A model generated the notes under the pieces. It ran no database searches. It had not been told where the DNA came from and saw only the letters and a program-made list of their open reading frames with translations. 64,000 nt of DNA, taken from positions 17,416-81,415 of the forward strand of contig SVIV01000001.1 of assembly GCA_015069325.1 (NCBI GenBank), written 5' to 3'. Position 1 is the stretch's first letter. The number at the start of each line of letters is the position of its first letter. The position numbers and the translations under genes are program-made. The DNA comes from Clostridiales bacterium. GTDB taxonomy: Bacteria > Bacillota > Clostridia > Christensenellales > UBA1242. Shown piece by piece: positions 12,703-15,170 of this stretch.

Positions 12703-14604
12703 TTAATTGTCAATATATTTGATTACAAAACAACCGCCAGTTCTGTATAATTTTAATACGTTGGTTGTTTGATTAAATTCATATTTCCAATATTGAAGAG
12801 TGATGTTTGTTGCGGTAACAACTCCATTAATTTTAAATTCGCTATCATCAATGATGAAAGTATTATATTCGTTCAAATCAAAATAATAATATGAGTTTTT
12901 GTTGTTATCCCAAGAAGAAAGGCTGATGCGAGTGAGTTCTCCTGAAGTAAGGTCAACATATTTAAGCAAGTTTGCGTTTGAGCCCATTGCTGTTAAGACA
13001 TTTATATAAACATTTAAATTTGAATCAACAATTGTATTTTCAGAAATTTTGTTTGTTAGTGTTTCGCTAGTATAAAAGCTTGCTGCAAGTTCAACCAAAC
13101 TTACGCCGTAATAATTGTTGTAATTTGCATTTTGAATTGTTTCTTTTGCAATATATGACCACATGGTGCCTTTTTCAAAATGAGAGTAGGTTTTCCAAAT
13201 TTTATTAGTTGCTGAGTCATAAATATTAATTGTAATAGGCGTTGTGTCTTGTTTATGCACATATTCAATTACGTTTACTGAGTTTGATCTTAACTCGAAG
13301 AAATATTCAACTTCTTGACCGTTCACATACGCTTGTTCATAATAGTATTTTCCGTCTTTGTAAAAGCGTTCTGCTTCATAAGTTTTATATTCAATTGGGT
13401 ATTCAGGGAATGTATAGTCTGTTATTTTTTCAATCGTTGGGACAACATCTTCTACTATTCGCTTTCCGTCAGTTTTTTCATAAATATATTTGCGAATTAT
13501 TGTTGAATAATCTTTTGCTGGTTGTGATACCAAATAAACGTCGGTTGATTTGTAGGAAGGAATAGTTTGATTGCTGACAAGTATAGTGTGATTTTCGTCT
13601 AAATATGCTTTATATCCAGTGGAATGTTCTTTCGCAGGCACACTTATATAATCAGAAATTAGCGAGCCGTATTCTTCAATGTAGCTGCCAAAGAATACAT
13701 TGTCTCGATAAAGATTTATTGTTTGTTTGTATTTTGTTGTTGGAATATTGCAATCCGATGTGTCAATTCTTTGGTATTGTGTTTGGTTGAAAGTGTTATC
13801 AAAGGTATAAGTCGATTTTGAGTATTGATACCATGATTCATTGCTTGGTTTAAACTTATCAAAAGATTCGGCTGTAGTATCAAAACTGATTAAAAATGAA
13901 TTGCTGAATGTGAATTTGTAATTTGTAATTTTTTGGCTTTCCGAAAATTCATTTGATTCTTGTGTTGTATAAGTGGCTTCAATGATATAGTTACCATCTT
14001 CATTACTTGTAGTAAGCGAATAAGACGCTTCGGTAATATTTTCGTTTGATAAATCAATTGATTTTTGTTGTTCGAAAAAGTTTTTGCAAGAAACATAATC
14101 AGAAAAATCATAGTTTATTCCGTCCGCGAAAATAGTTCCGCCAAAGTCTCCTTTGCTAAGAATGTTTTGTTTGATTTTATGAAGTCCAAATTCTTTTTCA
14201 ACAAGACAAGATGAATCTCCTTGTGGGAAGAATCCAATACATTGTCCGTTGAAATTTTTTGAAAAATATATTGGCTCAAAAAATTCCCATCTGTCAAGAA
14301 GCTCAAAAAATTCGCCTGTTGTGTTGTTATGGCTAAGGTAATAAGTGCTTGATTCACACCAATAACCATCAGTATTCATTAACTCTTTGCTTGGGCCAGA
14401 GAAAGATTCGTTTTTATGTGTAATGCTTAATGAGCCAGAGTATGACTCCATATGATTTTGCACAGACTCAAATATTTTAAAAGTCTGCTCTATTTGCGAG
14501 TTATTGTTGCCATCTGGTGAACCGTTATTCCCGCAGGCTACAAATGAGAGTGAAAGTGGAATTAAAAAAATTGATGCTAATAAATATTTTGAAACCTTTT
14601 TCAT
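12703..14604 (-). CDS. Large hypothetical lipoprotein
   Basis: Lipobox signal LIPLSLSFVACGNNG; start at MKKVSKY downstream of RBS aaggag; no recognised domain. Confidence 0.75.
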   Translation of the reverse strand: MKKVSKYLLASIFLIPLSLSFVACGNNGSPDGNNNSQIEQTFKIFESVQNHMESYSGSLSITHKNESFSGPSKELMNTDGYWCESSTYYLSHNNTTGEFFELLDRWEFFEPIYFSKNFNGQCIGFFPQGDSSCLVEKEFGLHKIKQNILSKGDFGGTIFADGINYDFSDYVSCKNFFEQQKSIDLSNENITEASYSLTTSNEDGNYIIEATYTTQESNEFSESQKITNYKFTFSNSFLISFDTTAESFDKFKPSNESWYQYSKSTYTFDNTFNQTQYQRIDTSDCNIPTTKYKQTINLYRDNVFFGSYIEEYGSLISDYISVPAKEHSTGYKAYLDENHTILVSNQTIPSYKSTDVYLVSQPAKDYSTIIRKYIYEKTDGKRIVEDVVPTIEKITDYTFPEYPIEYKTYEAERFYKDGKYYYEQAYVNGQEVEYFFELRSNSVNVIEYVHKQDTTPITINIYDSATNKIWKTYSHFEKGTMWSYIAKETIQNANYNNYYGVSLVELAASFYTSETLTNKISENTIVDSNLNVYINVLTAMGSNANLLKYVDLTSGELTRISLSSWDNNKNSYYYFDLNEYNTFIIDDSEFKINGVVTATNITLQYWKYEFNQTTNVLKLYRTGGCFVIKYIDN

Positions 14605-14715
14605 AAACATCTCCTTATGTAAATTATATCATATAAAATTTTTTATGTCTAATGATTTTAAATAAAGAATGAATTTTGCGAGACGACAAAAAAACAGCTT
14701 GTTTAAGCTGTTTTT

Positions 14716-14945
14716 TGGTAGAGATGAGTGGGGCGACAAGTTAAGAAAATAAGCCGGTGTGCTTATTTTTAGTCAAAGCCGGGAGCAACTAGTTTGCGGT
14801 CAGGCTCCGACAGGAGCGAACCACCGACCCCCACCTTTGAGAGCCAGGCAATTTATTTGCTTTGCGAAGTCCGTTAAGGGTGGTGCACCCTGGCAAAGTG
14901 AAACTTTGCGCTTGCTTAAAGCAAGCAATAAGGTGGGAATATAAT
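14716..14945 (-). pseudogene. tRNA-Ile-derived remnant interrupted by hairpin-rich insertions
   Basis: tggtagagatgagtgg (14716-14731), cgaaccaccgacccccacctt (14818-14838) and gggtggtgc (14878-14886) match the intact tRNA-Ile at 14981-15057 in order, separated by unrelated sequence; flanked by a copy of the tRNA terminator hairpin. Confidence 0.65.
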
Positions 14946-14954
14946 ATGCAAATA

Positions 14955-14980
14955 AAAAACAGCTTGTTTAAGCTGTTCTT
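14955..14980 (-). terminator. Terminator of tRNA-Ile (second copy at 14691-14714)
   Basis: aaaacagctt-gttt-aagctgttctt; near-identical copy aaaacagcttgtttaagctgtttt. Confidence 0.75.
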
Positions 14981-15057
14981 TGGTAGAGATGAGTGGACTC
15001 GAACCACCGACCCCCACCTTATCAGGGTGGTGCTCTAACCGGCTGAGCTACATCTCT
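14981..15057 (-). tRNA. tRNA-Ile (GAT), encodes CCA
   Basis: AGAGATG/CATCTCT acceptor stem, D-arm GTAGCTCAGCCGGTTAGAGC, anticodon loop CTGATAA, T-arm GGTGGTTCGAGTCCACT. Confidence 0.96.
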
Positions 15058-15170
15058 ATATAAAATTGTTTTAACGACTTTATCAACTGTCTTAAACCTA
15101 AGGTGGTTAGGTTTTCAAAATTGATTTCTCAAGATTGCAAAATAGATTATATATGATTTCACGGCATTTG

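Follow-up and report, generated by a model that had tools for sequence, protein, structure and literature searches.

Immediately past the 3' end of an intact tRNA-Ile gene, the window (the whole stretch of 64,000 nt from a Clostridiales bacterium that was analyzed here) carries the terminator of that gene, followed by ~220 nt of odd sequence and by a second terminator joined to a tRNA 3' end. The initial annotation took this region for a co-linear partial tRNA copy with small palindromic elements inserted in its loops, or else for a tRNA-derived structured RNA. Two questions arise from this locus: how such a copy came to stand beside an intact gene, and whether its hairpins belong to a family that also occurs elsewhere. 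The answer that we favor, with moderate confidence, is that the locus is a mosaic of a local partial duplication of tRNA-Ile and of Y, a small, non-autonomous, structure-conserved mobile repeat inserted at the DNA level by replicative strand switching. On the best reading of the data, Y represents a family of mobile repeats with a core of ~85 nt that has not been described before.

A partial copy of tRNA-Ile beside the intact gene

The features of the locus are compiled in Table 1.

Table 1. Features of the tRNA-Ile locus and its partial copy (window coordinates)
Feature	Position	Strand	Basis
Flank D, distal copy: terminator, CCA end, acceptor 3' strand, T-stem 3' strand	14689..14731	-	43-nt direct repeat
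Element Y, conserved structured repeat in the T-loop of the tRNA-Ile copy	14731..14816	+	CM R1 (built from 29 cores, the window Y among them), 95.5 bits, E 2.1e-18; covariation; second genomic copy
Y hairpin H1, AAAATAAGC/GCTTATTTT	14746..14769	+	sequence; covariation helix 3, compensatory change in 8/10 pairs
Y hairpin H2, GCAA/TTGC	14785..14797	+	covariation helix 4, compensatory change in 4/4 pairs
Y hairpin H3, GCTCC-GACA-GGAGC	14804..14817	+	sequence; varies across the family
tRNA fragment: T-arm 5' strand, variable region, anticodon-stem 3' strand	14817..14837	-	exact 21-nt repeat of 15000-15020
X insert I1, ~39 nt, anticodon loop of the direct arm	14838..14876	.	sequence; aligned with X units of relatives
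Fold-back turn AGGGTG-GTG-CACCCT: direct, then inverted anticodon-stem strand	14877..14891	.	sequence; X units of relatives
X insert I2, loop of the inverted arm: hairpins GCAAAGT-GAA-ACTTTGC and GCTTGCTT-A-AAGCAAGC	14892..14927	.	sequence; folds
Inverted anticodon arm, end: ATAAGGTGGG	14928..14937	.	sequence; folds
Flank D, proximal copy: terminator hairpin and tRNA 3' end to the T-loop/T-stem boundary	14954..14996	-	43-nt direct repeat, 98%
Intact tRNA-Ile, anticodon GAT	14981..15057	-	ARAGORN; Rfam RF00005, 71.4 bits

The two copies of flank D (14689-14731 and 14954-14996) form a direct repeat of 43 nt, 42 of which are identical, and are separated by a gap of 222 nt; the proximal copy ends at sense position 62 of tRNA-Ile. 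A second direct repeat, 21 nt long and exact, joins 14817-14837 to 15000-15020. The claim of a partial copy with a terminator of its own is supported by these two repeats, and the five palindromes listed in the initial annotation can be read directly from the sequence where it had placed them. The insert in the T-loop, which had been put at ~85 nt, is present and measures 86 nt (14731-14816), while that in the anticodon loop, also present, is ~39 nt (14838-14876) rather than ~44 nt in length.

No tRNA was found by ARAGORN in the odd region, and neither ARAGORN nor Rfam found a complete cloverleaf (tRNA or tmRNA) in the partial copy. Rfam gave no match to the region at the gathering score and no plausible match at E values up to 5. 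As a single strand, 14720-14952 folds with z = -4.12 (DNA, + strand), -4.07 (RNA, + strand) and -4.16 (RNA, - strand), and none of 200 dinucleotide shuffles was as stable in any of the three folds. With z of about -4 on either strand, the region is structured, as had been proposed.

Two other features lie close to this region. The tRNA-Ile leader contains a perfect hairpin (15095-15113, AACCTAA-GGTGG-TTAGGTT), the loop of which, GGTGG, matches the anticodon-stem strand. On the - strand, a long ORF adjoining the array (12703-14610) has a lipobox-like start (SLSFVACG) and probably encodes a lipoprotein.

Occurrence of element Y

Element Y replaces ~3 nt of the T-loop in the window and reads antisense to the tRNA. 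A search with 14730-14822 identified a second copy in the same genome, beside tRNA-Trp (G000:C7:45868-45958), and matched relatives many times, often in tandem. The exact 21-base core of Y was found in 38 stretches of Clostridia genome contigs, mostly within a partial tRNA copy adjoining an intact tRNA. By covariance model search, Y was present in 78 of 297 genomes and 35 of 125 genera of the order. A class-wide draw of 391 genomes, seven of which belong to the order, had Y in only 17. The weakest matches outside the order mostly lie beside tRNA T-arm-like sequence, and the only part common to them is the core GGCGTTAAG-hairpin-TTTTTAGCC. In some genomes Y is a high-copy element, with 10-15 copies within intergenic palindromic repeats (for example, 13 in G275 and 15 in G169). 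Moreover, it was found in three viral contigs, two of them with phage-like genes adjoining; in these contigs (L209, L210 and L211) it stands within palindromic repeats, and in L211 it lies between phage genes, beside a capsid-like ORF. Two consensus Y queries had no match among phage and plasmid records, and a comparison of Y with Rfam families yielded nothing at the gathering score and nothing credible even at permissive E values.

The check proposed initially, for the same hairpins at other tRNA-adjacent or intergenic sites, was thus positive for Y, which occurs at T-loop, anticodon-loop and D-loop boundaries, in intergenic palindromes and in phage contigs. The outcome that the initial annotation had set against its own reading, unique segments produced by simple point-mutational decay, is not what was found, since Y recurs. 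That the same architecture appears in many independently assembled genomes and tRNA isotypes, with compensatory changes, also leaves next to no room for a chimeric assembly or for a tandem tRNA duplication that has simply decayed, despite a duplicated flank of 98% identity and the many arrays that reach contig ends. Many tRNA-linked arrays begin exactly at a contig end (e.g. L016, L033 and G034:C3:1-26), and array lengths in these draft genomes are therefore underestimated.

Across tRNAs of one genome, the likeness of H1 was 0.788, compared to an expected 0.650, a difference reached by two of 500 label shuffles. This greater likeness within genomes fits a spread of Y inside genomes. Likeness at the same tRNA between genomes also fits inheritance.

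A covarying fold

Among 98 distinct sequences, 19 of the 23 pairs of the Y fold were changed on both sides, a count matched by none of 500 shuffles. There were 365 compensatory cells versus 90 in shuffles, and the covariation score was 0.485 versus 0.140 in shuffles and at most 0.082 with partners slid by 1-3 columns; the alignment was fitted to the model, which favors the structure somewhat, but in view of both kinds of control the covariation is hardly in doubt. Conserved U-G (96/98) and G-U (68/98) pairs are formed on one strand only, which is the + strand in the window, and Y also has conserved unpaired bases. The one-strand pairs hint at selection as RNA.

Y might accordingly be viewed as a functional structured RNA under selection (a cis-regulator of the tRNA operon, a tRNA mimic or a decoy), with tRNA-derived arms within its fold. 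We consider this reading possible, although rather unlikely. Y is absent from 74% of the sampled genomes of the order, it occurs in intergenic palindromes and phage contigs that have no tRNA, and the tRNA isotype that carries it varies between genomes. Its place within the tRNA leader in 5' copies would suit such a function, as would the strong covariation, the conserved unpaired bases and the conserved one-strand pairs, but in 3' copies Y lies antisense to the tRNA and beyond the terminator.

Position and anatomy of Y beside tRNA genes

Sixty-one Y units were compared with the adjoining intact tRNA (44 distinct tRNA sequences of the isotypes Ala, Arg, Asn, Gln, Glu, Ile, Leu, Lys, Pro, Ser, Thr and Trp). 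In 49 of the 61, the duplicated flank ended at one of three fixed points, namely the T-loop/T-stem boundary (28 units), the anticodon-loop/stem boundary (13, all Leu) or G19 of the D-loop (8), with the other 12 ending elsewhere; Y starts with a G-run, so shared Gs could account for up to ~3 nt of this precision. On the Y strand, the bases that precede Y are mostly GG. Lack of GG at the T boundary was rejected as the reason for the use of the anticodon arm in Leu, since Leu T boundaries end in GG too.

In 3' copies the duplicated flank includes the terminator of the tRNA itself, and in 5' copies its leader; the intact tRNA is normally retained beside the unit. The 5' end of Y faces the outside flank, and Y therefore reads antisense to the tRNA in 3' copies but in the sense direction in 5' copies, with at least one exception (L154:1762) in which the arrangement is reversed. 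Because its orientation is not tied to the direction of transcription, insertion appears to be a DNA-level event. One tRNA-Asn-type unit (L089/L125, in G229:C10) has a shortened second flank copy and no intact tRNA after it, as if tRNA-Asn had been lost or moved.

T- and anticodon loops of tRNA genes are known crossover sites of integrases. Boundaries in these loops, together with two X units that surround ~1 kb with ORFs (G021:C4), could be taken to mean that the units are leftovers of a prophage, ICE or tycheposon-like element that an integrase had inserted at a tRNA attachment site, with duplication of the tRNA 3' end. This is very unlikely, in that the units are short, boundaries also occur in the D-loop, the host's terminator or leader forms part of the flanks, arms are copied in inverted form, and Y is also found outside tRNA genes. 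Moreover, no integrase ORF was found in the 222-nt gap between the window copies of flank D or in the listed ORF neighborhood.

After Y, an inverted copy of the tRNA arm, mostly 10-18 nt long, was detected in 46 of the 61 units (shuffle p<=0.01). The commonest anatomy, from the outside in, is flank, Y, rest of the arm, short turn, inverted arm, flank repeated, and intact tRNA, as in the units of Trp (GGAAGG-[Y]-TCGAACC-TTAT-GGTTCGATTGCTTCCAC), Leu (GCGGG-[Y]-TTGATGTCCC-GTA-GGGACTCAAAATCCCGC) and Lys (GCTCAGTTGG-[Y]-GGAAGAGC-TT-GCTCTAACAACTGAGC). The inverted copy extends over both sides of the insertion point in the target and corresponds to the local tRNA arm, and the fold is possibly under RNA selection on the Y strand; both features would suit an RNA-guided mobile element, with Y as the scaffold and the inverted arm copy as a guide across the insertion point, acquired at each insertion. 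However, fold-back copying and self-pairing with the flank account for the same inverted copy, high-copy Y in intergenic repeats has no such guide, and a nuclease or recombinase partner was not found. We regard this reading as improbable, and similarly doubt its minimal form, in which an RNA-guided or RNA-templated element with an 85-nt scaffold would target tRNA hairpin arms and take a new 10-18-nt guide each time, leaving the tRNA intact.

Fold-back at the anticodon arm of tRNA-Ile

The Y unit of the window has no inverted copy of the T-arm and folds back at the anticodon arm instead. This part, X, reads CCCACCTT (14830-14837), I1, AGGGTG-GTG-CACCCT, I2 and ATAAGGTGGG (14928-14937), and CCCACCTT pairs perfectly with AAGGTGGG (14930-14937). 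CACCCT (14886-14891) and the terminal ATAAGGTGGG make up an inverted copy of the anticodon arm, with ~36 nt of hairpins in its own loop. It is this inverted copy that forms the remainder of the unit, where the 5' half of the tRNA had been thought to be replaced entirely. Part of the copy is an inverted fold-back of the tRNA arm, a feature that the initial annotation had missed.

The X arrangement also adjoins tRNA-Ile in relatives (eight aligned sequences and one more divergent), and its hairpins are preserved in the aligned units despite sequence change. X hairpins were seen beside tRNA-Ile only. The idea that palindromes had invaded the loops of a duplicated tRNA thus stands for Y in the T-loop, which is recurrent and covarying; the X hairpins are at most candidate mobile elements. 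Other relatives have a different insert in the T-loop of the tRNA-Ile copy, and some have upstream 5'-half copies bearing yet another insert. Such differing inserts, and the separate positions of Y in the T-loop and X in the anticodon arm, indicate that fold-back copies and loop inserts are partly independent events.

The 5'-half copies lie upstream of tRNA-Ile in L036, L035, L039 and L048 (G021:C9, G028:C16, G016:C14 and G026:C9, respectively); they have another hairpin insert in the anticodon loop, and some are in tandem, with a period of ~140 nt. In L037 (G021:C4:1-1700), two X-type tRNA-Ile units bracket ~1 kb that contains a further short ORF besides one of HIT-family-like type, as if X units were able to enclose cargo genes.

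Proposed origin of the units

Duplicated flanks and inverted arms match the adjoining tRNA gene, which indicates that they were made locally. In the mosaic reading that we favor, the partial duplication in the window would have been made at the site from the 3' part of tRNA-Ile and its terminator, turning back at the anticodon arm. In general, a strand may enter the tRNA gene from outside and halt at a hairpin arm, where Y would be acquired at GG. The strand could then fold back, copying the arm in reverse for 10-18 nt, and realign upstream; the flank would thereby be copied a second time and the tRNA left intact. Recombination between the repeated flanks would subsequently enlarge the arrays.

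Several candidates were rejected as drivers of Y or as identities for its parts. Reverse transcriptase (PF00078) was detected in four of 34 genomes, did not track Y and was not found in the window genome; Y1 transposase (PF01797) was found neither in the window genome nor in most Y-bearing genomes tested, and it did not track Y across the 34. Being absent or uncorrelated, both were discarded as drivers. The reading of H1 as a portable terminator was dropped because many members have no T-run (e.g. CTGTCGGTAGCC in L139-L144). By eye, the core motifs of Y do not fit the RYYYAAC/GTTRRRY pattern of integron attC sites.

Comparison with known systems

REPs are palindromes of 20-40 bp with a GTAG or CGTC tag at one end, and CGTC REPs, which have no known transposase, were reported from other phyla (PMC3733652). 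Like REPs and REPINs with RAYT (TnpA-REP), Y is a small, non-coding, palindromic intergenic repeat that is dispersed and non-autonomous, and it shares with CGTC REPs the lack of a known transposase. Unlike them, it has a core of ~85 nt with several helices (P2-H1, H2 and H3) and conserved unpaired bases, and it inserts into the arm loops of tRNA copies, where the flank is duplicated and the arm is also copied in inverted form. It also differs from RAYT-mobilized REPs in that the window genome has no Y1 transposase. We place Y in a new family of its own, made up of small, structured mobile repeats that resemble REPs but depart from their definition, and claim no named family for it.

MITEs, ERIC, BOX and Correia elements are structured, modular, non-autonomous and intergenic, and are sometimes nested in one another. 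Y resembles them in all of these respects and, as expected of a MITE-like element, is non-coding, multi-copy and dispersed at unrelated sites. No constant terminal inverted repeat was seen in the contexts displayed, and the search for an autonomous partner covered reverse transcriptase and Y1 transposase. In contrast to MITEs, Y takes its outer stems from the target (a tRNA arm or a host palindrome), and the duplicated flank of Y units is large, whereas the target-site duplication of MITEs is short.

Attachment duplications made by the integrases of prophages, ICEs and tycheposons leave a partial tRNA 3' copy beside an intact tRNA, with crossover in the T- or anticodon loop. Y units likewise show a second tRNA 3' end downstream of the intact gene. 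However, they have no integrase, their payload is tiny, some 5' copies have their boundary in the D-loop, the arm is copied in inverted form, and the tRNA's own terminator is duplicated. Fold-back template switching produces quasi-palindromes, in which an inverted hairpin-arm copy adjoins a tandem duplication. The same juxtaposition is found in Y units but, unlike in plain quasi-palindromes, mostly together with one specific conserved element that is placed at a fixed base. As for retroelements and group II introns, the reverse transcriptase expected of them did not track Y across the 34 genomes tested. Neither the sequence of Y nor its arrangement was found in the literature (open papers).

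Implications

Y would thus define a hitherto undescribed family of mobile repeats, small and folded, within an uncultured order of gut Clostridia. The anatomy of its insertions, with fixed points in tRNA arms, a duplicated flank and a fold-back copy, keeps essential tRNAs working. Arrays that flank tRNA genes call for caution, since assemblies break at them and they may be misread as tRNA pseudogenes or attachment sites. In addition, Y units provide many natural replicates of how tiny elements with no enzyme of their own spread.
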